Source: Actinocorallia herbida (GTDB lineage Bacteria > Actinomycetota > Actinomycetes > Streptosporangiales > Streptosporangiaceae). From it: DNA of 64,000 bases. The stretch is taken from contig NZ_RJKE01000001.1 in the NCBI RefSeq assembly GCF_003751225.1, positions 6,076,001-6,140,000 of the forward strand, read 5' to 3'. The translations under genes were made by a program, and so were the position numbers. This document shows positions 1,816 to 24,057 of this stretch, in pieces; the first letter of the stretch is position 1, and each line of letters opens with the position of its first letter. Below the pieces are notes generated by a model. It was not told the origin of the DNA. It ran no database searches and saw only the letters and a list, made by a program, of their open reading frames with translations.

Positions 1816-3030
1816 TCAGGCAGGACACCCGGGATAAAGATCCGCGCACTCGGCTCGCGCGAGGTCCAGGACCTGCTTGGGCGGCAGCCCGGTGGTCCGG
1901 GCGGTGGCCACGACGTCCTCGTACTCCACCGAAACGTTGACGACCTCGCCCTCCAGCGAGGCGATCTTCGCTCGTACCTGCCCGCCGAGGACCGAGAGAC
2001 GGACCTCCTCGCGCGCGAGGGCGGTCTTGGCGACCACGTGTCGGCGCACGCCGATCGTGGTGGTGTGCGTGAAGAGGACCCTCAGAACCGCAGGGGTACG
2101 ACTCTCTTCGCAGAGGATCGAGAGGGTGTGCGCGGGCCGCCCCTTCTTCATCAGGATCGGGGTCAGCCAGGCGTCCGCGGCACCGGCGTCCAGGAGCGCC
2201 GCGAGCGTCGGCGGCCACAGCCGCGGGTCCTGGTCGTCGACGTTGGCCTCCAGCAGCACGCCTCCGCCGTGCTGACCGGCGGGGCCCTGCGGACCGGGCT
2301 CCGCGCCGATGATGAGGCGGGTCACGTTCGGGTGGCCCGCGTGGTCGCGGCCACCGGCGCCCACCCCGGTGAACTGAGGGGCCATCACGGGCATGGGCCC
2401 GAAGGAGTGCGCGAGGGTGACTGCGAGGGCGACACCGGTCGGAGTCGCCAGCTCCGACTCGACCGGACCGCCGGAGCAGGGGGCGCCCGCCGAGCGGAGC
2501 AGCTCCAGCACCGCCGGCCCCGGTATGGGGATCACGCCGTGCTCGGTGGCGGCACGGCCGCCGCCGAGACCGATCGGGCTGCAGTACAGCCGGTCGACAC
2601 CGAGTTCCCGCAGCCCGGCGACCGTGCCCACGACATCGACGAGCGTGTCGAGGGCGCCCACCTCGTGGAAGTGCACCTGGTCTGCGGGCAGGCCGTGCAC
2701 GCGGCCTTCCGCGACCGCGAGGGCCGAGAACACCTCACCGGACCGAGCGCGCGTCTCCTCGTCAAGGTCCGCGCGAGCGAGGATCTCGAGAAGGTCGCTC
2801 AGCCTGCGTTCATGCCGCCCGTCCTCGGTGCCCACGCTGACCTGGGTGGCGCGCATTCCCGCCCGTCGCGTCTCCCGCGCTCGGATCGTGATCTTTTCGG
2901 GTAGCCGCAACGCCTCCACCACGTGTTCGAGGAAGGCGGGCTTCAGGCCAGCGTCGACGCAGGCGCCCAGGAGCATATCGCCGCTGATGCCGCCGGTGGC
3001 ATCGAGCCAGGCGGTCCTTCCCACGCTCAT
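1816..3030 (-). CDS. larC: LarC, nickel insertion into the pincer nucleotide cofactor
   Basis: LarC is the CTP-dependent nickel insertase that makes the final nickel-pincer nucleotide (NPN) from the dithiolated pyridinium mononucleotide. The N-terminus WLDATGGISGDMLLGACVD is the LarC signature. The acidic/His-rich centre (VHFHEVGALDTLVDVVG, with ELATPTGVALA after it) is the known conserved core, and EANVDDQDPR begins the C-terminal half. The gene is one continuous 404-codon frame, whereas larC of Lactiplantibacillus plantarum needs a programmed frameshift. The start at 3030 overlaps the larE stop (ATGA), so translation is probably coupled. The reading frame stays open further upstream, but that stretch is antisense-like sequence inside larE and not part of the protein. 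Confidence 0.93.
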   Translation of the reverse strand: MSVGRTAWLDATGGISGDMLLGACVDAGLKPAFLEHVVEALRLPEKITIRARETRRAGMRATQVSVGTEDGRHERRLSDLLEILARADLDEETRARSGEVFSALAVAEGRVHGLPADQVHFHEVGALDTLVDVVGTVAGLRELGVDRLYCSPIGLGGGRAATEHGVIPIPGPAVLELLRSAGAPCSGGPVESELATPTGVALAVTLAHSFGPMPVMAPQFTGVGAGGRDHAGHPNVTRLIIGAEPGPQGPAGQHGGGVLLEANVDDQDPRLWPPTLAALLDAGAADAWLTPILMKKGRPAHTLSILCEESRTPAVLRVLFTHTTTIGVRRHVVAKTALAREEVRLSVLGGQVRAKIASLEGEVVNVSVEYEDVVATARTTGLPPKQVLDLARAECADLYPGCPA

Positions 3031-3890
3031 CCCGCCTCCACCGCGGTCCGACCCTCGTTGAGGGAACCGCTGCGGAACCCCCGCCGGTCCAGCTCGACGT
3101 GCTCGAAGCCGGTGACGGCGCGCAGGACGCCGGCTGCCTCCACGGCCTGGATCCGTTCCGCGTCGACCTCGACCCGGGCGATGTCGCCGAGATCGCGGAC
3201 CCGCAGGTTGCGGACGGGAACGCCCGCCTCCGCCAAGGCCTGGCGCAACGATCGCTCGGCGGCGCCCACCCTCGACAGCCTCGCGGGCGTGATCGGGAGG
3301 CCGTAGGCGACACGGCTGGACAGGCAGGCGGCGGCCGGCTTGTCCGCGGTCCTGAGGCCCCACTCCCCGGAAGCCGCGCGGACCTGGGCCTTGGTCAGCC
3401 CGGCATCACGCAGGGGGGTCACCGCCCCGCGAGCGGCGGCGGCACGGATCCCCGGCCGGAACGGGTCCAGCGCGTCATCGGCGTTCGTTCCCGTCGCCAC
3501 GGCGGCGAGCCCGAGTTCCCCGGCGAGCGGCGTGAGGACGTCCAGCAGTTCGGCCTTGCAGTGAAAGCATCTGTCCGTGTCATTGCGCACGTATCCGGGA
3601 CGCCTGAGTTCCTGGGTGCGCGGGGCGAAATGCCGGACTCCCAGGTCCGCGGCGAACCGCCGGGCGTCTTCCAGCTCTTCGGCCGGAAGCGAGGGGCTCA
3701 CGGCGGTCGCCGCGGCCACCCGCCCCGCACCGAGCGTGCGCACGGCCGCCGCCAGCAGGAAGGCCGAATCGGCGCCCCCGGAGAACGCGACCAGCAGCGA
3801 GTCCGCGTCCAGCAGAAGCCCGGCGAGCCGGTCGATGCGACGCCGGAGATCCTCCTGCGGGAAGTCTTCGCCATGGGTGAGTGCGTTCAT
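3027..3890 (-). CDS. larE: LarE, ATP-dependent sulfur transferase (probable [4Fe-4S] type)
   Basis: LarE converts the two carboxylates of pyridinium-3,5-biscarboxylate mononucleotide to thiocarboxylates. The PP-loop ATP motif SGGADS is at residues 37-42. Cys189 lies in the motif AAACLSSR, equivalent to the sacrificial Cys176 of L. plantarum LarE. Cys108 and Cys111 form an added CxxC (RCFHCK). Three such cysteines are the mark of LarE proteins that hold a [4Fe-4S] cluster and need not sacrifice their own sulfur; that reading is from family knowledge. Length (287 residues) is normal. The gene overlaps larB upstream and larC downstream by four bases each (ATGA). The start at 3890 fits this coupling. 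Confidence 0.93.
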   Translation of the reverse strand: MNALTHGEDFPQEDLRRRIDRLAGLLLDADSLLVAFSGGADSAFLLAAAVRTLGAGRVAAATAVSPSLPAEELEDARRFAADLGVRHFAPRTQELRRPGYVRNDTDRCFHCKAELLDVLTPLAGELGLAAVATGTNADDALDPFRPGIRAAAARGAVTPLRDAGLTKAQVRAASGEWGLRTADKPAAACLSSRVAYGLPITPARLSRVGAAERSLRQALAEAGVPVRNLRVRDLGDIARVEVDAERIQAVEAAGVLRAVTGFEHVELDRRGFRSGSLNEGRTAVEAG

Positions 3891-4612
3891 GTTCCGCTCC
3901 CGGTGATGGTCTCGGTCGTGCCGCGGGTTCTGGCACCGAGATTGAGGATGCGCACCGCCGCGCACGCCGCTCCGAATCCGTTGTCGATGCCGACCACGGT
4001 GATCCCCGGGCTGCAGGAGGCGTGCATGGCGAGCAGCGCGGTCACGCCTTCCAGGGAGGCCCCGTAGCCGGGGCTGGTGGGGATCGCGATCACGGGGGCG
4101 TCGGTCATCCCGGCCACCACACTGGCGAGGGCTCCCTCCATTCCCGCAGCGACCAGGACGAGGTCGGCGTCGCGCAACCGGTCGGCCTCGGCGAGGATCC
4201 GGTGCAGGCCGGCCACTCCAACGTCGCAGACGAGATCGGGACGGACCCCGTAGGCCGACAGCACGGCCTCGCACTCTCGGGCCGTCGGCAGATCGGCTGT
4301 GCCCGCCGTGAGCACGGGGACCCGTTCTGCGCGGGCGGGAGACGTCCGCCAGGTGAGCACGGCGGTGTCGGGTCCGGTCTGCACCGACATCCCACCCGGA
4401 TTCCGGCTCAGTGTGGCCTCCGCCTGTTCCCGGTCGGCCCGGGTGAGGATCACCGGCCCCGTACCCGGTCCGTGCAGCAGGCCGTGCACGGCCTCGGCGC
4501 ACTGACCGGGGGTCTTTCCCGGCGCGTACACCGCTTCCGCCACCCCGGTCCGGACACCCCGATGATGATCCAGCCGGAGCTGGACGAACTCCTCCTCCGT
4601 GGCAGGGCTCAT
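3887..4612 (-). CDS. larB: LarB, pyridinium-3,5-biscarboxylate mononucleotide synthase
   Basis: LarB carboxylates nicotinic acid adenine dinucleotide at C5 and cleaves off AMP, the first step of NPN biosynthesis. The C-terminal half is PurE-like: GTADLPTARE near residue 104, DVGVAGLHRIL near 130, AAGMEGALASVVAG near 155 and IPTSPGYG near 177. Cys200 (HASCSPG) sits where family LarBs have the cysteine that forms the substrate adduct. At 241 residues it is of ordinary length. It is overlapped by the stop of the upstream TetR gene (ATGA) and itself overlaps larE, so the regulator and the three biosynthetic genes form one tight unit. Confidence 0.93.
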   Translation of the reverse strand: MSPATEEEFVQLRLDHHRGVRTGVAEAVYAPGKTPGQCAEAVHGLLHGPGTGPVILTRADREQAEATLSRNPGGMSVQTGPDTAVLTWRTSPARAERVPVLTAGTADLPTARECEAVLSAYGVRPDLVCDVGVAGLHRILAEADRLRDADLVLVAAGMEGALASVVAGMTDAPVIAIPTSPGYGASLEGVTALLAMHASCSPGITVVGIDNGFGAACAAVRILNLGARTRGTTETITGSGT

Positions 4613-5232
4613 CGGTACCGCCTCCCGAATCCGTCCAGGAGCAGCTCGATCGCGGCGATGGACAGCTCGGCCGCCTTCTCGACGGAGACCCGGGAGAACC
4701 CCGCCAGCGCCATCTTGGCGTGGCCGAAGACGACCGCGATGACGCCGAGCGCCGGAATGTGACACTCCTCGACGGGCGCTCCGCTGATCGCGGAGATGAT
4801 CTGCACGAACTGGTCGTATCCCTCGCGGCTCCATCGATCGATCAGCGCTGAGTGGCGCTGCAACCCGCTGTCGAAGATGAGCAGGAAAGCGCCGGGCTCG
4901 TCTCTGGCGAAGTCGAAGAAGTCCACGATCAGGTCGTTCAGCGCGTCTTGTGGCCGGTCCAGGTCGATCGAGCGCTGCCCTCGGCGTGCGTTCCAGTTCT
5001 CGTAGCTCGAATGCGCCGTCGAGAGCAGCAGGTCGTCGAGACCGTTGAAGTGCCGGTAAGGGGCCGCGCCGGTCACTCCGGCCCTCCGAGTGCACTCCGC
5101 CATCGTCACCGCGCCGAGCCCGTGCTCGGCGATCACGTCGAGCACGGCCTGGTGCATCGCTTGAACGAGGGCGCCGTGATGGTAGCGCCGGGCATCCGGG
5201 ATCTTCGCCCTTGCCACTGAGTCATTCCCCAT
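4609..5232 (-). CDS. TetR family regulator heading the larBEC operon
   Basis: The N-terminal helix-turn-helix (residues about 15-65, with MAECTRRAGVTGAAPYRHF) is clear TetR. The C-terminal ligand domain (DDLLLSTAHSSYENW onward) resembles the WHG-type group. I place the start at ATG 5232; an upstream in-frame TTG at 5262 would put coding sequence over the inverted repeat at 5260-5282. Its stop overlaps the larB start, so it is co-transcribed with larBEC. It sits between two divergent arms and is the obvious candidate to bind the repeat and control both. The ligand is unknown; it could be the substrate or product of the divergently encoded enzyme. Confidence 0.88.
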   Translation of the reverse strand: MGNDSVARAKIPDARRYHHGALVQAMHQAVLDVIAEHGLGAVTMAECTRRAGVTGAAPYRHFNGLDDLLLSTAHSSYENWNARRGQRSIDLDRPQDALNDLIVDFFDFARDEPGAFLLIFDSGLQRHSALIDRWSREGYDQFVQIISAISGAPVEECHIPALGVIAVVFGHAKMALAGFSRVSVEKAAELSIAAIELLLDGFGRRYR

Positions 5233-5259
5233 GAAGCCATCCTGCCCGCCGTTGACCCC

Positions 5260-5282
5260 CAATGTAAATGACCGTTACATTG
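5260..5282. promoter_or_regulatory. inverted repeat, putative TetR operator in the divergent lar promoter
   Basis: CAATGTAA at 5260-5267 and its exact complement TTACATTG at 5275-5282 are separated by seven bases. It lies between the TetR-larBEC start (5232) and the ferredoxin start (5312). An 8+7+8 layout is typical of TetR operators. It is AT-richer than the surroundings. Confidence 0.6.
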
Positions 5283-5311
5283 CTCGCACCTCCACAGGCT
5301 TGGGACGGCCC

Positions 5312-5971
5312 ATGAAAATCGTCAGGCAAGAGATCAAGATCGTCGATGCCAACTGCACCGGCTGCTACCGCTGCGAACGCGCCTGTCCGACCGCGGCCAT
5401 CACCATGGTTGGTCCGCGCAAGGAAGAGATCGCGGTCGTCGACAACGACAAGTGCATCGCCTGTTTCCGCTGCGTCGACGTGTGCGACGACGACGCCATG
5501 CTGATCGCCGAGCGCGAGGTGCCGCGCAAGGTGCGCACGAGCCCCAGATCCGTGGATCCGGCCGAGCTGAACGCCCTCTGCGAGGCAGCCGGCCTGGACC
5601 CTGACCAGATGGCGTGCCTCTGCAGCTCGACCAAGGTCAAGGAACTCGCCGCCGCGGCGCTGAACGGCGCCTCGACCTTTGAGGAACTGGCCCTGGCGAC
5701 CGGGGCGGCCTCCGGCTGCCTGCTCTACTGCGGTGTCCCCATGCGCAGGGTGCTGCGTGCCCGCACCGGCGACGAGGTGGACCCGAGCGGATCCAAGGTG
5801 CGGCGGTACGACTCCGCGCAGATCCTGCTCGACATCGACGAGGCGGCGGCCGACGCCTACCCCCTGTTCGCCCTGCGCCGCGAGCAGGCCGCGGCCCGCG
5901 CCAAACGGCAATCCTCCGGAGCGTCCCCTGAAGGGGCGGCCCGGAGCGGAGAAGCGAGGAGCACCCCGTGA
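5312..5971 (+). CDS. two-cluster ferredoxin fused to a BFD-type [2Fe-2S] domain
   Basis: An electron-transfer protein of 219 residues. The N-terminal domain holds two [4Fe-4S] motifs: Cys15/18/21 and Cys25-Pro (CTGCYRCERACP), then Cys48/51/54/58 (CIACFRCVDVC). After a linker comes a bacterioferritin-associated-ferredoxin-like domain with CLC at 102-104 and Cys136 and Cys140, ligands expected for a [2Fe-2S] cluster. The C-terminal 60 residues are charged and Ala-rich with no domain I recognise. The start at 5312 fits the first beta-strand of the ferredoxin fold; an open frame reaches further up but crosses the operator. The stop overlaps the next start (GTGA), so it probably serves the following enzyme as electron donor or acceptor, which is inference. 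Confidence 0.85.
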   Translation: MKIVRQEIKIVDANCTGCYRCERACPTAAITMVGPRKEEIAVVDNDKCIACFRCVDVCDDDAMLIAEREVPRKVRTSPRSVDPAELNALCEAAGLDPDQMACLCSSTKVKELAAAALNGASTFEELALATGAASGCLLYCGVPMRRVLRARTGDEVDPSGSKVRRYDSAQILLDIDEAAADAYPLFALRREQAAARAKRQSSGASPEGAARSGEARSTP

Positions 5972-7377
5972 GCGCAAACCCGTCGTTCGCCCCCGTCGCG
6001 GAACCCCCCGAGGTCATGCCGACGGTCTACGGGCCGCCTCCCCAGGCCGACCGCGGAAAGGACATCCCGGGTCTGGTCTCCCTCCAGGTCCGCGACCTCT
6101 TCCCCGACATCCCCGCCGCCGCCTACCACGGAGGTCCGGACGTCTCCGCCATCCGCCGCTCGACGGAGGCCGTGCTCGCCTCCGTCGACATGGCCATGAT
6201 CGGCGAGAACGACACGGTGAACCTGCTCTGCTCCGAGCACGGGTTCGGGATGCTCGGCGGCCACGCGTACGCCGAGATGCTCACCGCGATCAAGGACGAG
6301 ATCGAACGCAGGACCGGCTGCCGGAAGGTGCGGCTGGTCGTGATCGCGTGGCTGGGCGCGAAGGAACCGGAGGAGCTGATCGAGTACTACGAACTCGACC
6401 GGCGCTTCGAGGGCCGCGTCCGCGGTGCGACACCGCTGGACCAGGGGGTCGCGATCGAGACCGCGATGGGCACCCTCTACGGGCTGCGCAAGGTCTACGA
6501 CGCCAAGTGGATCATCCACGCGCACTACGACGACCCTCGCGAGGTCTACGTGCACCGCGCGATCGACCGCATCACCAAACCGTTCGGGATGTCCTACGCC
6601 CGGATGGAGACGCGCTCGATCTTCCACATCACGATGGGACCGCGCAGCGGCAACTTCATCGGCCGCGCCATCGCGGACTCGGAGTTCGTGCGGTCCAAGC
6701 TCGCCTTCAGCACGACGCTCGTGACCTCTCCCGACGGAGTGCTGGCCGTCGACGCCGACAACGACCTGCGGTCCCTCGGCGACCGGATGATCGCCAACAT
6801 CCTCCGCTCCTACGGGAAGATGCTGACGCTCCTGCGAGCCGTGGAGGAGTGCGTCGCGGTCGTCGACGGAGGAAAGTGGCCGTACTACATCCACGCCGGA
6901 GGCATGATCTTCGGTCATCTCTTCTACAACGCCGTGGACTGGTTCGACCTCGACCGGCCGGACGCCGATGTTGCCGTCGAGAAGGCGGTCGCCGCCGGCT
7001 TCAGCAGATCGATCAAGGCGATCGTGCTCAACCAGGCGCTCATCGGGCTGAACTTCACCAGCATGGCCATGCTGTATCCGCTGATCATCGCCAACCGCGA
7101 GATGGCCGACGCCATGCGGCACGATTTCAGCAACCCGATGTTCCTGGACCATGCGACTGAGGCGGACGACCTCTTCCAGGCGGTCGAGACCGCGGTCGAA
7201 CGCGGCGGAACCGACAAGATCATCGTCTTCGACGGGACGTACGGTGCGCTCAATGTCAGCCCGTCCATGGCCCGCCATCTGATCGACCTGGCGCCCGCGG
7301 TCGACAGGCAGGTGGAAGAGGAGCTTCTCCCCATGTGGCTCAAACAACGCGGTATCGACCCTCTGGATCTGCAGTGA
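5968..7377 (+). CDS. orphan 469-residue enzyme, possible remote LarA-type NPN enzyme
   Basis: I do not recognise a named family by sequence. The order of elements is compatible with LarA (DUF2088): a strand-turn with SEHGFGMLGGH at 89-99 where LarA has SDHTRP, then RLVVIAWLGAKEPEELIEYY at 122-141 in the place of LarA's GFH-containing strand, then IIHAHYDDPREVYVHRAI at 182-199 and ITKPFGM at 202-208 where LarA has its nickel His and cofactor-binding Lys. His184, His186, His196, His220 and Lys204 are the residues to test. Context supports this: it is the only enzyme-sized protein beside larBEC and no ordinary larA is present. GTG start 5968 and GTG of the next gene both overlap flanking stops. 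It may instead be an unrelated enzyme; the assignment is inference. Confidence 0.5.
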   Translation: MSANPSFAPVAEPPEVMPTVYGPPPQADRGKDIPGLVSLQVRDLFPDIPAAAYHGGPDVSAIRRSTEAVLASVDMAMIGENDTVNLLCSEHGFGMLGGHAYAEMLTAIKDEIERRTGCRKVRLVVIAWLGAKEPEELIEYYELDRRFEGRVRGATPLDQGVAIETAMGTLYGLRKVYDAKWIIHAHYDDPREVYVHRAIDRITKPFGMSYARMETRSIFHITMGPRSGNFIGRAIADSEFVRSKLAFSTTLVTSPDGVLAVDADNDLRSLGDRMIANILRSYGKMLTLLRAVEECVAVVDGGKWPYYIHAGGMIFGHLFYNAVDWFDLDRPDADVAVEKAVAAGFSRSIKAIVLNQALIGLNFTSMAMLYPLIIANREMADAMRHDFSNPMFLDHATEADDLFQAVETAVERGGTDKIIVFDGTYGALNVSPSMARHLIDLAPAVDRQVEEELLPMWLKQRGIDPLDLQ

Positions 7378-8282
7378 GCGCCTCCTACGACCTTCTGGAC
7401 AAGAAGGAGCTGCGGATCACCGACGTCCACCTCGACGGCGCCGACCTGTCAGAGCTGGCCGACGCCGCCGCCGAGGTCCTCGACATGGCGCGGGAGGAGG
7501 TCCTGGTCACCGACTACCTGGACCGGGTGCTGACATTCGATATCCTGCGGCCGACCCTCTACCCGCATCAGCTCCTCGACCGGCAGGACGCGCTGCTGAC
7601 CCGGCTCGGCTCGATCAGCGGGGTGCGCCTAGGCGAGAACGCGCGCGTCGCGTCCAACGGGATCCTCGGCTGGATAGCGGCCGACGGCCGGATGGAGGAG
7701 ACCCTCCGGTCCGCCGAACGGATCGCCGAGCAGATCGCGGCCAGGGTCAGCCGCCGAGCCGTCATCTTCTCCACCGGCGGCGAGGTCGTCGCCGGTGAGA
7801 TCCGCGACACCAACAGGGAGACGATCACCGGATTTCTGGAGGCCTCCGGCTTCCTGCCGGAGTTCGGCGGCGCGCTGCGCGACGACACCGTCCTCATCGC
7901 GGGCGCGATCAGGGCGGCCGTCCACCGGGGCCACGGGCTCGTGGTGACCACGGGAGGGGTCGGCGCGGAGGACAAGGACCGCACCGTCGACGCGGCCCTG
8001 CTCCTCGACCCGGAGGCGGCGACTCCCTACCTGTGCCACTTCGAGCCCGGCCACGGCCGTCACGTCCGCGACGGGGTCCGCATCGCGGTCGCGGAGTACG
8101 AGGGCAGCCGCATCGTCTGCCTTCCCGGCCCGAACGACGAGGTCCGGGCCGCCATGGAGGTCCTGATCCCGGGCCTGGACCGCGGCTGGCCCGCACCGCG
8201 GCTCGCCGAAGCCATCGCCGAGAGGCTCCGCGGCATCCTCCGCACCCGGATGTCCATGAAGAAGGAGCACGACCACAGATGA
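7374..8282 (+). CDS. CinA/MoaB-type MoCF-domain protein with an unknown N-terminal domain
   Basis: Residues about 125-300 form a MoCF_biosynth domain. The motif FSTGGEVVAGEIRDTN matches the CinA N-terminal (COG1058) nucleotide site, and VVTTGGVGAEDKDRT (about 199-213) matches the TTGG-G-x-D-x-T loop of MoaB/Mog/CinA. LPGPNDEVRAAMEVL ends the domain. The first 120 residues have no match I can name. COG1058 domains bind or hydrolyse nucleotides such as ADP-ribose, and MoaB/Mog adenylate pterins; beside larB and a NadC-like gene a role on a pyridine nucleotide seems more likely than molybdopterin. GTG 7374 overlaps the previous stop and the stop overlaps the next ATG, so it is translationally coupled on both sides. 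Confidence 0.75.
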   Translation: MSASYDLLDKKELRITDVHLDGADLSELADAAAEVLDMAREEVLVTDYLDRVLTFDILRPTLYPHQLLDRQDALLTRLGSISGVRLGENARVASNGILGWIAADGRMEETLRSAERIAEQIAARVSRRAVIFSTGGEVVAGEIRDTNRETITGFLEASGFLPEFGGALRDDTVLIAGAIRAAVHRGHGLVVTTGGVGAEDKDRTVDAALLLDPEAATPYLCHFEPGHGRHVRDGVRIAVAEYEGSRIVCLPGPNDEVRAAMEVLIPGLDRGWPAPRLAEAIAERLRGILRTRMSMKKEHDHR

Positions 8283-9100
8283 CCGCCCCTCCGCGTTTCC
8301 GCAACCTGACGCAGGAACTGCTCCAGGACATTCCGGGTACCCACCGCGCGCTGGTAACGGCCACCGAGCCCGGCATCGCCGCCGGACTCGGCCGGCTCGA
8401 CCAGGACCTCGGCGAAACGGCCGCAGGGCGATGGCGGGTGCTGGTGGAGGAAGGCGAGTCCATTCCCTCCGGCGGAGCCCTGGTGGAGATCGTCGGGACG
8501 GCCGCCGAACTCGCCGCCGCGGAGGACCGGGTGCTCGGTCCCCTGGGCTACGCGGGTGGTGTCGCACGGCGCTGCGCCGAGCTGAGGCGGGCGTGCCCGG
8601 ACGGCCTCCGCATAGCGTGCGGCGGCTGGAAGAAGCTTCCCGCGCCGCTCAAGCCCCTGCTGCGCGAGGGCCTCGCCGCGGGCGGCGTGACCCCCCGGCT
8701 CGTGGACGGCGACTTCGTCTACGTCGACAAGAACGTCGTCGGCCTGCTCGGCGGCCCGAAGGCCGCGGTGCACTCGGCGGTCCTCCTGGACCACGGTCCG
8801 GTCGCGGTCCAGGTCGCCTCGGTGGCCGAGGCCTTGGACGCCGCCTGTGCCGGGGCCGGGATCGTCATGGTCGACACCGGCGAGCTGCGAATGCTCGCGG
8901 ACGTCCACCATGCGCTCACGGAAGCCGGCCTGCGCGGCGACCTCGTTCTGGCCTTCGCCGGAGGAGTCACCTCCGGGATGCTCGGCGACGTCCGATCCGC
9001 CGGCGCCGAAGTCGTTGACCTCGGCCGTGCCATCCTCGACGCGCCGTTGTGGGACCTCCACCTGCAGATCTTGGATTTCAAGGAAGAACATCCTCAATAG
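8279..9100 (+). CDS. divergent NadC-like (quinolinate phosphoribosyltransferase superfamily) protein
   Basis: The 273-residue length and domain order fit the type II phosphoribosyltransferase family (NadC, ModD): an N-terminal alpha/beta segment ending in ESIPSGGALVEIVG at 60-73, the helix pair EDRVLGPLGYAGGVARR at 82-98, and a C-terminal barrel with IVMVDTGELRMLADV and LAFAGGVTSGML, the strands that bind PRPP phosphate. The usual DTRKT motif of NadC is replaced by RIACGGWKKLPAPLKPLL (111-128) and the GG-HR motif by AAGGVTPRLVDGDFVYVDKN (133-152), so the pyridine site is altered. It overlaps the previous gene by ATGA. A plausible task is to make or remodel the pyridine mononucleotide used by LarB; this is inference. 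Confidence 0.72.
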   Translation: MTAPPRFRNLTQELLQDIPGTHRALVTATEPGIAAGLGRLDQDLGETAAGRWRVLVEEGESIPSGGALVEIVGTAAELAAAEDRVLGPLGYAGGVARRCAELRRACPDGLRIACGGWKKLPAPLKPLLREGLAAGGVTPRLVDGDFVYVDKNVVGLLGGPKAAVHSAVLLDHGPVAVQVASVAEALDAACAGAGIVMVDTGELRMLADVHHALTEAGLRGDLVLAFAGGVTSGMLGDVRSAGAEVVDLGRAILDAPLWDLHLQILDFKEEHPQ

Positions 9101-19820: not shown

Positions 19821-20228
19821 TTAGGCCTTGGGTGTTTTGAGGGTGAAGAGTCCGGGTTTGGGTTCGTTGGCGAGGTCTCGGCTGACGAGGCGTTTGAGTT
19901 TGGCTCGGGTGCCTTCGACGGTGTTTTTGTGGGTGTGGGGCAGGCCGAGGGCGAGGCAGGCTTCGCGGGCGTGCAGGCCGTCGGGGTGTCGGGCCAGAAC
20001 GGCGAGGAGGTCCTGGTAGGCGGGCGGGAGTTGCGGCGGGTCGGGTTCGGTCGGGGTGGCGGGCAGCAGGTCGAGGAGGGTCTGGCGGGTGACGTCGAGG
20101 CGGGTGAGCTGCTGGTGGGCGGCTTCGAGTTCGGCGGTGAGCCGGTCGACCTCGGCTTGGGCGTCATCGAGCAGGCCGGTCAGGTGCTTCAGCAGCGGCT
20201 CGGGCAGCGGGGGCGGGTGGTCGCTCAC
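19821..20228 (-). CDS. IS-associated accessory protein (coiled coil plus C-terminal HTH-like part)
   Basis: GTG 20228 overlaps the TGA of the transposase (GTGA), so the two are coupled. The 135-residue product starts with a predicted coiled coil (DDAQAEVDRLTAELEAAHQQ, residues about 22-41), has a Pro-rich linker (PATPTEPDPPQLPP), then a small helical part with LARHPDGLHAREACLALG that resembles a winged helix. I do not recognise a named family. Its placement suggests a passenger or regulator of transposition; this is inference. It is intact although the transposase is split. Confidence 0.6.
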   Translation of the reverse strand: MSDHPPPLPEPLLKHLTGLLDDAQAEVDRLTAELEAAHQQLTRLDVTRQTLLDLLPATPTEPDPPQLPPAYQDLLAVLARHPDGLHAREACLALGLPHTHKNTVEGTRAKLKRLVSRDLANEPKPGLFTLKTPKA

Positions 20229-20913
20229 GCGGCCATGACGGAGGGAAGGGCCGGAGCGTCGTGGTCGCGCCAGCGGCTGGTGGTGCCGGTCAGGCGGCGG
20301 GTGAGCCGGTCGGTCTCGGCCCAGTAGACGTGGGCCCGGCTGCTGGCGGTGGTCTTCTCGTAGTCGCGGACCAGCCGGCGATGCAGCATCAGCGTGCCGA
20401 ACGTCTGCTCGACCACCCACCGTCTCGGGATCGGAGCGAACCCCGTGGTGCCGGGCTCACGCTGCACCGTCTCCACGGTGATGCCCAGCATCTCGCCGTG
20501 GTCGGCGACCTGCCTCTTGAACCCCGCATCCACCCACGCCGCCTCCACGGACGGGTTGTCGATCGCGACCTGGTCCAGCAGCTCGATCCCGACGGCGTTG
20601 TCGTGCACGCTCGCCGCCGTCACGACCACCGCGATGATGAGGCCGAGCGTGTCGGTCGCGATGGCGCGCTTGCGGCCCCGGGACTTCTTGCCCGGATCCA
20701 GCCCGGTCGTCTCCGAGGGGACCCCTGCCGCGGCGTGAACCGTCTGGGAGTCCATCGCCACCCCCGACGGGTCCTCGCCCCGGCCGGCCTTCTCCCGCAC
20801 CCGGCAGCGCAGCAGGTCATGGATCGTCTGCGTCAGCCCGTCATCCCGCCACGCCGCGAAGTAGTAGTACACCGCCGACATCGGCGGCAGATCATGCGGC
20901 AGGTACTCCCACT
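20225..20913 (-). pseudogene. IS5-family transposase, 3' part (split by nested IS)
   Basis: Carries the larger part of a DDE transposase: WEYLPHDLPPMSAVYYYF, DSQTVHAAAGV with the first Asp, VDAGFKRQ with the second, and RRWVVEQTFG with the Glu. It joins exactly to the 5' part at 21827-22010 when the nested IS and one ACT copy are removed: the junction reads V-Q-W-E-Y-L and gives a single 289-codon frame. As it stands it has no start and is inactive. Confidence 0.85.
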
Positions 20914-21826
20914 GAGCCTTTTTCATCGTGCTTCGCGGTTGGCGAGGACGGCGATGGCTTTGACGAGGTGGCCGGCTTTGGAGGGGCTGCACCGGAGTCG
21001 GTGGAGTAGTTTCCATGACTTGAGCTGGGCGTTCGCCCGTTCGCCGGGTGCGCGCAGGCGGGCGTGGGAGCGGTTGGCCTGCTTCTGGGAGGCGGGTTTG
21101 CCGCGGCCCTTGTAGGGCGTGATCACCACGCGGGTCTCGGCGCCCTGGTAGCCCTTGTCGGCAAGGACAGTGATTCCGGTCTTGTGGAGCTCGCGCAGGA
21201 TGCCCCAGATCCGTGCGGCCGTCAGGTCGTGCGTCCGGCCGGGCAGCGCGCCCGAGGTCCACAGGATCTCCCCGTCAGGGCCTGCGATGACCTGGATGTT
21301 CACGCCGTGGTGGCGGTGCTTGGCCGAGTAGTACGGGCGGTCTGCGGCGACGCGGTCGGTGCGGATGAGTGTCCCGTCCATGACCAGCAGGTGCAGCCCG
21401 TCCCGCACGGCCCGGCGCAGCACCTGTGTCAGCTTCGGCGACCGGGACGACAGCAGCGCGACGACCTCCTCGACATACCGCCAAGCCGTCGAGATCGACA
21501 CCTCGAAACCAGCCCCCAACTGCGCGAACGTTTCTCCCTTGCGCAGGTGGACCAGCACCAGCAGCGCCTGCCGGCCTGGATTCAGCAGCCGCCAGGCCGA
21601 ACCGATCGCCCTGCGATGCCGACGGATCAGCCCCGCGACGTAGTTCAGCGTTGAACGCGACAAATCGACGGCAGCACGATAGAACAGCACCGAAGCTCCT
21701 GGTCGAGACGGGTGTTGGTTGTGGTGATCAACCCATCTACCAGGGGCTTCTTATCGTTTGAGGCCGTTCCGGGAACCCGCGGCCATGCTGTGATCAGCCC
21801 ACCCGCACCCAGGATGAAAAAGGCTC
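20914..21826 (-). mobile_element. nested 913-bp insertion sequence with ACT target duplication
   Basis: Both ends begin GAGCCTTTTTCATC: directly at 20914 and inverted ending at 21826; a further TG pair follows one mismatch. ACT flanks it at 20911-20913 and 21827-21829. A 3-bp duplication and this size fit the IS427/IS1031-like part of the IS5 family. It encodes one transposase. Removing it restores the interrupted transposase frame, so the insertion was precise and recent enough to leave both halves readable. Confidence 0.88.
20923..21690 (-). CDS. IS5-family (DDE_Tnp_4-like) transposase of the nested IS
   Basis: A 255-residue full-length transposase. The N-terminal helix-turn-helix includes GETFAQLGAGFEVSISTAWR (about 52-71). 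The DDE residues are in LVMDGTLIRTDR, VLADKGYQGAE and PGERANAQLKSW. It is a single uninterrupted frame, unlike its frameshifted sibling at 22524. The stop lies close to the left end of the element. It probably remains able to mobilise this IS and the sibling copy. Confidence 0.92.
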   Translation of the reverse strand: MLFYRAAVDLSRSTLNYVAGLIRRHRRAIGSAWRLLNPGRQALLVLVHLRKGETFAQLGAGFEVSISTAWRYVEEVVALLSSRSPKLTQVLRRAVRDGLHLLVMDGTLIRTDRVAADRPYYSAKHRHHGVNIQVIAGPDGEILWTSGALPGRTHDLTAARIWGILRELHKTGITVLADKGYQGAETRVVITPYKGRGKPASQKQANRSHARLRAPGERANAQLKSWKLLHRLRCSPSKAGHLVKAIAVLANREAR

Positions 21827-22010
21827 ACTGCACCCCCGTCCGCTCCTGATACAGGATCGCATTCACGATCTCCCGCATCGGATACCGCCCCGAATGCCCC
21901 GAAACCGACCGATGCCGCGCCTTCCACGCCGAGATGAACGGCTCGACCAACGCCCACCGCTCATCGGACAGATCACTGCGATACGCCTTACGGCCACCCT
22001 CCACATCCAT
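21827..22010 (-). pseudogene. IS5-family transposase, 5' part (split by nested IS)
   Basis: Begins MDVEGGRKAYRSDLSDERW and continues with PMREIVNAILYQERTGVQ, the N-terminal DUF4096 type region of IS5 transposases. The frame then meets the nested IS end. ATG 22010 looks like the true start. The piece includes the right copy of the ACT duplication (21827-21829). Confidence 0.85.
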
Positions 22011-22118
22011 GCACCCACAGCAACCCAGACACCACCCAGGGTCAACAAGCCGCTACACAACCCTCACCGACACGGCCAACCGCATCACCGACAATCCCTC
22101 TCAAAAGACCCTCTCAGA

Positions 22119-22387
22119 TCCGTGCGGCAGCCGGTCCAGCGACCGTACGTCTCCACGCATGGATCATCGCGCGTCCTATCGCACGCTCTCCCACCATCGC
22201 CTGGCAAAGTCCCGCTACGCATGAAGGGAGCCGGGTGGCAAAGGCCTGAAACCCGTACCGATCCAGGGACAGGGCGGGTCAGCAATGGGTTCGGTGCACC
22301 CGTAGGTGCTTCGCCTTGCCTGATCACAAGCGCAGTACGCCGTCTCTCTCCAGCCGATAGCCCTGCATTCTGGGCAGCGCATCCAAT
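22119..22387. other. intergenic stretch between two IS elements, nothing recognised
   Basis: No start with a ribosome site and no protein motif could be supported on either strand. Together with 22011-22118 it makes about 375 bases without a gene, the first part being the end of the outer IS5-type element. Confidence 0.4.
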
Positions 22388-23308
22388 GAGCCTTTTCCAG
22401 CAGTCTTGTCCGGGCTGCTGATCACGACATGATCGCGGGTGGTGTGACTGGCTGCGGACGTGAAGAAACCCCTGGTAGGAGAGGTGGTCTCTGACCTCCG
22501 CCCCCCGCAACCAGAGGTTTCACGTGCTGTTCTATCGTGCTTCGCTGCCTTTGTCGCGCTCGACCCTGAACTACCTGGCCGGGCTCGTCCGGCGGGAGCG
22601 GGTGAAGCTGAGGAGCAAGGGCCGGGCGCTGAATCCCGGGCAGCAGGCGCTGATGGCGGTCGCGTATTTGAAGAAGGGTGAGACGTATCAGCAGCTCGGA
22701 GCGGGTTTCGGGGTCGGGACGACGACCGCGTGGAGGTACGTGAACGAGGTCGTGGCAGGCTGTCGGCCCGCTCGCCCAAGCTCGACAAGGCGCTCGCCCG
22801 GGCGAAGAAGGACGGGCTCGGGCATCTGATCCTGGACGGCACCCTGATCCCGATCGACCGGCTGCGCGCCGACCGGCTCTTCTACTCCGGCAAACACAAG
22901 AAACACGGCATGAATCTCCAGGTCATCGCCGGTCCGGATGGGCAGATCGTGTGGGTGTCAGGTGCTGTGCCCGGCTCGATCCACGACCTGACAGCCGCCC
23001 GCAACTGGGGCATCATCCGCGCCCTGACCACCTGCGGGCTGCTGGTCCTGGCCGACAAAGGCTACATAGGCGCCGACCCGGCGATTCTCGTCCCGTACAA
23101 GGGCAAGGACAAGCCCGCCCCGCAGAAGCAGGCCAACCGCTCCCACGCCAAGCTCCGCGGCCCAGGCGAACGCGCGAACGCACAGCTCAAGTCATGGAAG
23201 ATCCTCACCAAACTCCGCTGCTGCCCCCACCGCGCCGGCCACCTCGCCAAAGCCATCAGCGTCCTACAAAACCGCGAAGCCGCCCTCACCCTGTGATGAA
23301 AAAGGCTC
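22388..23308 (+). mobile_element. second copy of the 0.9-kb IS, AAT target duplication
   Basis: The left end is GAGCCTTTTCCAGC at 22388 and the right end, inverted, is GAGCCTTTTTCATC ending at 23308. AAT flanks it at 22385-22387 and 23309-23311. It encodes a transposase of the same family as the nested IS but clearly diverged, so it is a related element and not a fresh copy. Confidence 0.85.
22524..23296 (+). pseudogene. frameshifted IS5-family transposase
   Basis: The first frame (from ATG 22524) runs from LSRSTLNYLAGLVRRERVK to WRYVNEVVAG; the second, from about 22763, runs from LSARSPKLDKALARA to the end with LILDGTLIPIDR, VLADKGYIGAD and PGERANAQLKSW. Comparison with the intact sibling (EVVALLSSRSPKL) shows one base missing at about 22755-22763. 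Some IS5-group elements use programmed frameshifting, but the sibling needs none and no slippery run is seen, so I call this a disabling mutation. Confidence 0.82.
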
Positions 23309-23424
23309 AATGACATGCTCTGGTCCCCTCGCCCTCGCGGGTCCGGGTAAGTCATCGATCCCAGGAATATTCCTCCAATTCCTCCCGGCTGAACCGGGGA
23401 TATAACAGGGCGCCTCGTGGCGCA

Positions 23425-24057
23425 CGTGTGCAGAGCGTCAGCGGTGATGACTTTCCCGGCCAGATCGAGCGGGGCGAGCAACGGGGCGAACGCCGGGATC
23501 TGGTTGCTTTTGGCCTCGACCTGGCGTTGAGCGATGACGAGCTGGTCGTGGTGCAGGGCCGCGGCGAGCAGATGAACGGCCGTGCCGTCGGTGCGGCTGC
23601 CGCGCAGGGTCTTGCCATCGACCGCGATGGCGACCGGCGGAAGGTCGCCGGGGTGTTCGGCGGTCAGCCGGGCGAGGTAGCCGCCCGCCGCCTCGTCCAG
23701 GGCGTCGCCGTCCAGGCGGGCCAGTAGCCGGCCGAGTGTGCTGGCCGCCGGCAGATCCGCGCCCTGGCGCAGTCCGAGTGCTGTGAGCAGGGCGGGGTCG
23801 CAGCCCGCGATGAACCGGGTGATGCGCGCGAGTGAGGTCGCCCCGCCGAGCACCGCGAGCAGGCACAACGTCAGCAGCGGTCCCAGCCGGTAACGGCGTC
23901 CTCGACGGTCACGCGGGTCGGGCAGAGCGTCCAGCAGGTCAGCGAGTGCGGGCAGGTCGGGGAGCTCTTCGGGTGGGCAGGGCAGCACGACGTCCTCGCG
24001 GTGGCGAACGAGTACGTCGATCGGGGAAGATGGCACGCGGACGCGGCCCCTGTTCAT
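23425..24057 (-). pseudogene. ISAs1-family transposase, C-terminally truncated
   Basis: The first 211 codons are a good ISAs1/H-repeat type transposase: LLDALPDPRDRRGRRYRLGP, FIAGCDPALLTALGLRQGA, AIAVDGKTLRGSRTDG with the first Asp, and VITADALHT with the second. After ADALHT similarity stops and the frame runs into unrelated sequence before the neighbouring IS. The third catalytic residue is missing. Bases 23312-23424 hold nothing I can identify. Confidence 0.8.

Follow-up and report, generated by a model that had tools for sequence, protein, structure and literature searches.

Which enzyme uses the nickel-pincer nucleotide (NPN) cofactor where larB, larE and larC are present and an ordinary larA is not? 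Passages of a 2024 mBio paper (PMC11796402) put genomes with larB, larE and larC but without larA at ~15% of those analysed, and suggest that the cofactor serves non-LarA-like proteins. Here the question is raised by a locus of Actinocorallia herbida, in a 64,000-nucleotide stretch that we call the window (6,076,001-6,140,000 in a 9.8 Mb single-contig genome). A minus-strand arm with the lar genes stands back to back with a plus-strand arm that encodes, among others, a 469-aa protein, labelled X469. Our best explanation, which we consider rather likely, is that X469 is an NPN-dependent, ferredoxin-coupled LarA-fold enzyme carrying out net redox chemistry, and that its anaerobic clade probably opens the ring of 2-furoate reductively and independently of O2. 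The computed evidence consists of fold and residue matches, gene linkage, co-occurrence and neighbours. The features on which the argument turns are the following, in window coordinates.

1816-3030, minus strand: larC, nickel insertase with LarC1 and LarC2 in one frame (PF01969, 2.3e-122; TIGR00299 and NF052512 above cut-off)
3027-3890, minus strand: larE, sulfur transferase (TIGR00268, 267.5 bits; cut-off 150)
3887-4612, minus strand: larB, nicotinic acid adenine dinucleotide (NaAD) carboxylase/hydrolase (NF033503, 230.5 bits; cut-off 175)
5312-5971, plus strand: ferredoxin with two 4Fe-4S motifs and a BFD-like Cys motif (PF12838 above cut-off, PF04324 just under)
5968-7377, plus strand: X469, a LarA-fold protein of no named family and candidate NPN enzyme (fold models; K204/H220)

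The original prediction for this DNA had described complete larB, larE and larC without an ordinary larA, and a divergent arm consisting of a ferredoxin, a 469-residue protein of no recognised family, a MoCF-domain protein and an altered NadC-like protein. Both descriptions hold. All three lar genes pass curated cut-offs (for the two parts of LarC, LarC1 188.9 bits with a cut-off of 90 and LarC2 135.3 bits with a cut-off of 50), and a profile search found no match to Lar_N (PF09861) anywhere in the 9.8 Mb genome. Profile scans agree with the description of the other arm, and X469 had no Pfam or NCBIfam match at E <= 1.

AlphaFold models of the window X469 and of its ortholog at locus L007 (38% identical) were built from an eight-row alignment and compared with the PDB using Foldseek. 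At E <= 0.001, the window model (predicted local distance difference test [pLDDT] 83.3, predicted template-modelling score [pTM] 0.87) had three matches, all of the LarA family (6d6z, 8ezh, 7s91; E 2.1e-7 to 6.3e-7), and the next match was at 5.5e-3. The L007 model (pLDDT 84.2, pTM 0.85) gave five matches at the same threshold, again all of the LarA family and including 9q3k (9.8e-9 to 4.7e-6; next match 9.0e-3). Comparison of the fold with LarA had been named beforehand as a check, and in two orthologs it returned only LarA-family matches at this level. A relationship was also detected between profiles. Because the set of 44 LarA homologs was tried second, after failure of a 22-LarA set, the comparison was controlled with shuffled, reversed and unrelated profiles. 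This wider set, which includes divergent homologs, came from 52 loci offered, with 49 matches, of which five with E > 1e-5 were dropped. Local hhalign gave a probability of 60.6, a score of 43.4 and P 8.3e-5 over X469 profile columns 56-219 and LarA columns 38-201, and global mode gave a probability of 85.3 and P 6.7e-7. Relative to the score of 43.4, 40 column-shuffled LarA profiles reached 27.6 or less, the reversed profile 17.8, NadC-like 17.2 and MoCF 16.4.

The LarA cofactor site has a recognisable counterpart in X469. In Lactobacillus plantarum LarA, nickel is bound to His200 and NPN is linked to Lys184 through a thioamide, as set out in passages of PMC9283937. K204 and H220 of X469 align ungapped with Lys184 and His200 in the hhalign alignment with the 44 LarA homologs. 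Both residues, at a spacing of 16, are invariant in 37/37 X469 (the truncated X469 of L008 is excluded from the 37-protein tree and its counts, and L003 and L002 were dropped as duplicates of L047 and L058). A His at +16 is likewise found in 23/23 LarA homologs with a true SGGxK motif, although this comparison covers only 23 of the 44, since 20 lack the motif and the match in L082 is false. X469 H196 is a His in 36/37.

Several observations weigh against this reading. No LarA in the PDB was found with X469 by phmmer or hmmsearch at E <= 10, and the 22-LarA set gave an hhalign probability of only 0.1. The best E value was 0.019 for a 28-row X469 hidden Markov model (HMM) searched against the 44 LarA homologs, and 0.66 for a LarA HMM searched against X469, both under inclusion. 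The template-modelling scores of both models with LarA were 0.36-0.51 (root mean square deviation 6.8-8.9), so that the match is distant or the domain angles differ, and the two models are not independent because they share the same eight sequences. In addition, the catalytic His108 of LarA has no counterpart, X469 columns 126-130 holding a His in 1/37. The column of His174, 10 before K204, contains H in 22, Y in 13 (Y194 in the window) and D in 2. Opposite S-D-H-T-R of LarA, X469 has S-E/H-H-G-F in a gapped alignment, and D72 and R75 are not clearly kept. Weighing both sides, we conclude that X469 is real and conserved, and that it probably represents a novel branch of the LarA fold that uses NPN and is linked to a ferredoxin. 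Our confidence is moderate, because we infer the presence of NPN and nickel on X469, the flow and direction of electrons, and the substrate; the roles of the MoCF and NadC-like proteins are inferred as well.

Compared with the LarA superfamily (lactate/malate racemases, Lar_N PF09861), X469 shares the fold, the Lys/His spacing of 16 and, mostly, larB, larC and larE nearby or elsewhere in the genome, whereas it has no Pfam or NCBIfam match, lacks H108, has no residue aligned with R75, and is accompanied by an upstream ferredoxin in all copies seen and by MoCF and NadC-like companions. In having one catalytic histidine fewer, it resembles the single-histidine LarA homologs (9q3k; PMC12611868). 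According to the abstract of that paper, which does not mention a ferredoxin, their His is replaced by Asn and they are linked to carbohydrate metabolism. No description of a ferredoxin-linked X469 system was found in the portions consulted of the open-access nickel-pincer and furoate-degradation literature, subscription papers being outside this scope.

The most constant companion of X469 is the ferredoxin. Its gene is located directly upstream on the same strand in 36/36 other X469 copies, overlapping or within 55 bp as judged from open reading frame bounds (gene calls at neighbour loci are open reading frame heuristics, not the output of a gene finder). Eleven cysteines are invariant in 27 relatives; C18 and C51 of the window ferredoxin, the second Cys of each 4Fe-4S motif, are conserved in <90% across 27 sequences. 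At L054 (11074-13191), the ferredoxin is part of a 705-aa open frame and is perhaps fused to another domain.

We propose that X469, as a remote and separate branch of the LarA fold, would carry the NPN that LarB, LarE and LarC produce, with K204 as its tether and H220 as the nickel ligand. Electrons would pass between the partner ferredoxin and the pincer, and the pincer would exchange hydride with the substrate. If such ferredoxin coupling is true, the pincer cofactor does net redox chemistry, beyond the hidden redox of the racemases. Alternatively, X469 could be an NPN enzyme for a redox-neutral isomerisation, and the ferredoxin could serve cofactor maturation, acting for instance with a [4Fe-4S] LarE or with the MoCF and NadC-like proteins. 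In the window LarE, three cysteines (C108, C111 and C189) are found in the arrangement of the [4Fe-4S]-type LarE, and three-cysteine LarEs are, in passages of PMC9283937, predicted or shown to hold [4Fe-4S]; MoCF and NadC-like genes are also present in most clusters. We nevertheless regard an isomerase as unlikely, because the ferredoxin adjoins X469 in 36/36, even at loci where no lar gene was seen, and because H108, one of the two catalytic histidines of LarA, has no X469 counterpart. A ferredoxin is not known to be required by LarA clusters.

What, then, would the ferredoxin-coupled enzyme act on? We counted genes within 11 kb of X469 for 36 copies. A 2-oxopent-4-enoate-hydratase-type gene was near 16/36 copies, those of anaerobes, 4-hydroxy-2-oxovalerate aldolase and acylating acetaldehyde dehydrogenase genes were both near 10/36, all among these 16, and BenE was near 10/36; an IclR regulator was often present. 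L163 and L164 have, on one strand, the order ferredoxin, X469, BenE, NadC-like, MoCF, hydratase, acetaldehyde dehydrogenase and aldolase. On the 37-protein tree, the hydratase label needs one change, on one side of a branch, and 0/500 shuffles were as low, a result that near-copies inflate. At L045, the aldolase (462.3; cut-off 286) and the acetaldehyde dehydrogenase (379.4; cut-off 282.25) both pass, and the nearest solved structure to the hydratase is a 2-keto-4-pentenoate hydratase.

The product side of this pathway may point to a furan. 2-Oxopent-4-enoic acid (C5H6O3) and 2-furoic acid (C5H4O3) differ by 2 H, so that, by chemical reasoning, a single two-electron, two-proton step with cleavage of C5-O would link them. 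In the anaerobic clade, hydride would be delivered to C5 of 2-furoate and C5-O cleavage would yield 2-hydroxypenta-2,4-dienoate, on which the hydratase from the neighbouring gene acts; the aldolase and the acylating acetaldehyde dehydrogenase would then produce pyruvate and acetyl-CoA. The same reasoning would accommodate pyrrole- or thiophene-2-carboxylate. Furoate as substrate and UbiD as an HmfF-type decarboxylase had been put forward before the UbiD proteins of L046 (525 bits, 1e-156; next protein 203 bits) and L048 (453 bits, 1e-134; next protein 188 bits) were found to match 6h6v. This structure is PtHmfF (PMC8988006, in part), and passages of PMC6644310 describe HmfF as a furandicarboxylate decarboxylase yielding 2-furoate. 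On the other side of the balance, such a decarboxylase was found in just 2/16 hydratase-type clusters (L046 and L048), L007 carries a VdcC-like decarboxylase, and the UbiD of L047 is closer to the VdcC-like one (30%). The L045 hydratase (267.3 vs 408.8) is under its NCBIfam cut-off, as is BenE (173.7 vs 203.4), and the support of the hydratase branch is 74/95.

A bolder proposal, which we advance tentatively as possible, is that X469 and its ferredoxin would be the first net-redox nickel-pincer enzyme, cleaving a heteroaromatic ring by oxygen-free reduction. In anaerobes, two electrons would convert 2-furoate to 2-hydroxypenta-2,4-dienoate, and paralogs, including that of the window, would act on other cyclic or unsaturated acids. 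Lignocellulose-derived furans inhibit fermentations, so an oxygen-free degradation route would be practically useful. The anaerobic X469 clade would offer a gene-level hypothesis for anaerobic furan degradation. Passages of a 2018 review mention two anaerobes for which breakdown of furanic aldehydes has been reported, and express the hope for oxygen-free pathways (PMC6604932). As described in the same passages, the aerobic Trudgill pathway for furfural and 5-hydroxymethylfurfural (hmfABCDE, hmfFGH) has the HmfF-type, 2-furoate-supplying decarboxylase in common with two X469 clusters. The Trudgill route runs via furoyl-CoA and C5 hydroxylation to 2-oxoglutarate (PMC6604932), whereas X469 clusters have the hydratase, aldolase and acetaldehyde dehydrogenase; hmfABCD were not part of the profile searches.

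The same neighbours could be read differently, with X469 and the ferredoxin opening a benzenoid ring (catechol, pyrogallol or protocatechuate type) without O2 and feeding a lower meta-cleavage pathway. The hydratase, aldolase and acetaldehyde dehydrogenase are indeed lower meta-cleavage enzymes, and BenE and the VdcC-like decarboxylase of L007 suit benzenoid acids. However, a C6 ring must lose one carbon, and no gene for such steps was recognised in the clusters; 2-furoate is already C5 and only 2 H away from 2-oxopent-4-enoate, and two clusters have HmfF-type decarboxylases. We therefore consider a benzenoid substrate quite unlikely, and retain 2-furoate as the candidate for the anaerobic clade.

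Two other features of these clusters were observed. A gene for an M24 (prolidase-like) protein is near hydratase-type clusters at L044, L045, L048, L050, L051, L165, L167 and L171, and its product is conceivable as an N-acyl amino acid hydrolase. In genome G1453, the X469 paralog locus L168 has an FAD_binding_2 oxidoreductase, an HpcH/HpaI aldolase and a TRAP transporter, and paralog locus L170 has an enoyl-CoA hydratase, an HMGL-like protein and a 2-oxoacid:ferredoxin oxidoreductase. These differing contexts suggest several substrates.

If X469 depends on NPN, it should be found with larB, larC and larE. A scan of the genome collection gave seven X469 loci, in Mycobacterium, Clostridium and metagenome-assembled genomes (MAGs) labelled Chloroflexi, Deltaproteobacteria, Syntrophaceae, Peptococcaceae and 'bacterium'. 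X469 is rare. Counting the centre genome each time, it was present in 1/60 genomes around the window (its own), 3/346 in the G060 genus, 6/341 in the G063 class, 7/46 in the G065 class, 1/350 in the G062 phylum and 10/345 in the G064 phylum. There are two copies in G060, G796 and G1188, and four in G061 and G1453. For co-occurrence we used 80 genomes, 23 with X469 (including G066, the genome of the truncated L008) and 57 without, the negatives being taken in list order, not at random, from genomes recorded as having no match. Six further X469 genomes from the G065 class are outside the 23, and 14 named control genomes (6 with LarC, 2 with LarA) were not searched for X469.

Co-occurrence of X469 homologs with larB, larE and larC had also been named in advance as a check, and 17/23 X469 genomes have all three over cut-off, compared with 14/57 without X469. 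The individual counts were 19/23 vs 19/57 for LarB, 19/23 vs 19/57 for LarC and 21/23 vs 17/57 for LarE. At least one of the three is under cut-off in 6/23 (G064, G066, G088, G796, G1066 and G1075), two of which are draft MAGs by title. LarA itself is commoner with X469 (18/23 vs 20/57; Fisher 4.8e-4), and we therefore rejected the all-genome co-occurrence as proof of a link and rest the claim on LarA-less genomes only. All five LarA-less X469 genomes (that of the window, G060, G065, G1188 and G1342) have LarB, LarC and LarE. LarC is present in 5/5 of them vs 6/37 LarA-less X469-free genomes (Fisher one-sided 5.4e-4), a contrast tempered by its five positives, three of which come from one genus and are not independent. 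Linkage in the clusters is of the same kind: the X469 cluster includes all of larB, larC and larE at L058, L059, L060 and in the window, larB and larC at L045, larC at L042, the C-terminal part of larC at L005, and, at L163, a larC-like gene with 25% identity.

It is improbable, in our view, that X469 has the LarA fold but is free of NPN, with actinobacterial larBCE nearby serving another user. The low template-modelling scores would agree with this, as would passages of PMC7583248 according to which the NPN-binding residues are missing from some LarA-like groups, which may do without NPN. Yet K204 and H220 are invariant at the LarA spacing, and no LarA is over cut-off in the five genomes just named, all of which keep larBCE.

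X469 is thus a concrete candidate, with testable residues, for part of the orphan-larBCE gap. An explanation of all orphan larBCE by X469 is ruled out by G069, G076, G412, G415, G758 and G759, which carry LarC in the absence of both X469 and a LarA over cut-off. Two X469 clusters contain a LarA homolog (L045, 6200-7492; L004, 6051-7343), that of L045 having 97 bits with Lar_N and being nearest to, but under the cut-off of, the LarAH6 type; there, X469 and a racemase may belong to a common pathway. Divergent Lar_N proteins of anaerobes with weak scores and no SGGxK motif recur at L132-L148 and may form another non-NPN or altered-NPN family.

The remaining genes of the plus-strand arm encode the other two companions.

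7374-8282, plus strand: MoCF-domain (CinA/MoaB-like) protein with an N-terminal region of ~130 aa (PF00994, 9.6e-19)
8279-9100, plus strand: NadC-like protein with altered active-site motifs (PF01729, 3e-9; TIGR00078, 60.7 bits)

The start of the MoCF gene was placed at GTG 7374 on the basis of its GTGA overlap with X469. The protein passes the PF00994 cut-off and is weakly similar to 3kbq and 3tcr, but unlike CinA and MoaB it does not reach the cut-off of any named NCBIfam member and has the extra ~130-aa N-terminal region. The NadC-like protein resembles quinolinate phosphoribosyltransferase (NadC) across most of its chain (4i9a, 4.2e-9), whereas its score with the NadC equivalog TIGR00078 is far below the cut-off (60.7 vs 198.4 bits). 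In the alignment with 4i9a, TRKT is replaced by GWKK, SHR by PRL and VKDNH by VDKNV. The replaced motifs are those of the NadC active site, and because of these changes we do not call the protein NadC. Within the fetched stretch, the NadC-like gene is found on the X469 strand for 33/36 copies and the MoCF gene for 31/36, some being >8 kb away and shared between copies. From the mycobacterial loci we had considered that the NadC-like gene is one per genome and hence serves general cofactor synthesis. G1453 rules this out: each of the four X469 copies there has a NadC-like gene in its vicinity, at a distance of 8.5 kb in one case.

The original prediction saw here a self-contained system with its own pyridine-nucleotide supply. 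Self-containment gains from the LarA-type fold, the two cofactor-contact residues, the constant ferredoxin and the larBCE co-occurrence. The supply branch became doubtful, because the NadC-like active-site residues are changed and a NadC-like gene stands by each G1453 X469 copy; for this protein, an enzyme-specific maturation or subunit role fits at least as well. Maturation or adaptation of the X469 cofactor is the probable task of the MoCF and NadC-like proteins, unless they are accessory subunits. That all four plus-arm proteins instead form a remodelling complex making a modified pincer for another enzyme is very improbable: MoCF and NadC-like do resemble nucleotide-handling enzymes, but X469 reaches four copies per genome (G061, G1453), in differing catabolic contexts in G1453 as expected of substrate-specific enzymes, and no further orphan enzyme that recurs stood out from the cluster gene lists, in which open reading frames of no known family were not all searched.

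The window enzyme itself belongs elsewhere than in the hydratase clade. It groups with L058_4126 (77% identical) and L059_7744 with support of 100/100. No 2-oxopent-4-enoate-hydratase-type gene, 4-hydroxy-2-oxovalerate aldolase or acylating acetaldehyde dehydrogenase is near the window X469 or its clade, which speaks against extending the furoate scheme to it, and no HmfF-type decarboxylase was recognised in the window cluster. The cassette neighbours are an aldehyde dehydrogenase, a thiolase, an enoyl-CoA hydratase, a class III CoA-transferase and an acyl-CoA dehydrogenase, and those at the mycobacterial locus L058 are short-chain dehydrogenases, an enoyl-CoA hydratase and acyl-CoA dehydrogenases. 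Given these acyl-CoA-type neighbours, the window X469 probably readies an unusual acid for CoA-dependent oxidation; in the proposed scheme, this acid would be fed into acyl-CoA oxidation. Beside the L058 cluster (472-1917) is a 482-aa protein with no Pfam match at E <= 1e-4.

Finally, we inspected the layout of the locus, which has a regulator and an operator-like site between the arms.

4609-5232, minus strand: TetR-family regulator (PF00440, 6.8e-8), with a 4-nt ATGA overlap with larB
5260-5282, between the arms: operator-like palindrome CAATGTAA-N7-TTACATTG, a perfect 8-7-8

The minus-strand arm has the order TetR, larB, larE, larC, and the plus-strand arm ferredoxin, X469, MoCF, NadC-like. 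The TetR gene, coupled to larB, is the fourth gene of the lar arm and was absent from the earlier gene list. The predicted ATGA or GTGA overlap at every junction was borne out by inspection (4 nt at 6/6 intra-arm junctions), and the shared inverted repeat proposed between the arms proved to be the 8-7-8 palindrome, the only inverted repeat of at least 8 nt within 5200-5330. The TetR reading frame reaches 5262 with an upstream TTG, whereas a start at ATG 5232 puts the palindrome upstream of the gene. With that start, the palindrome precedes both the TetR ATG (5232) and the ferredoxin ATG (5312), placed as a TetR operator would be. Two transposase-domain genes are located at 20225-24057, ~11-15 kb downstream of the locus.

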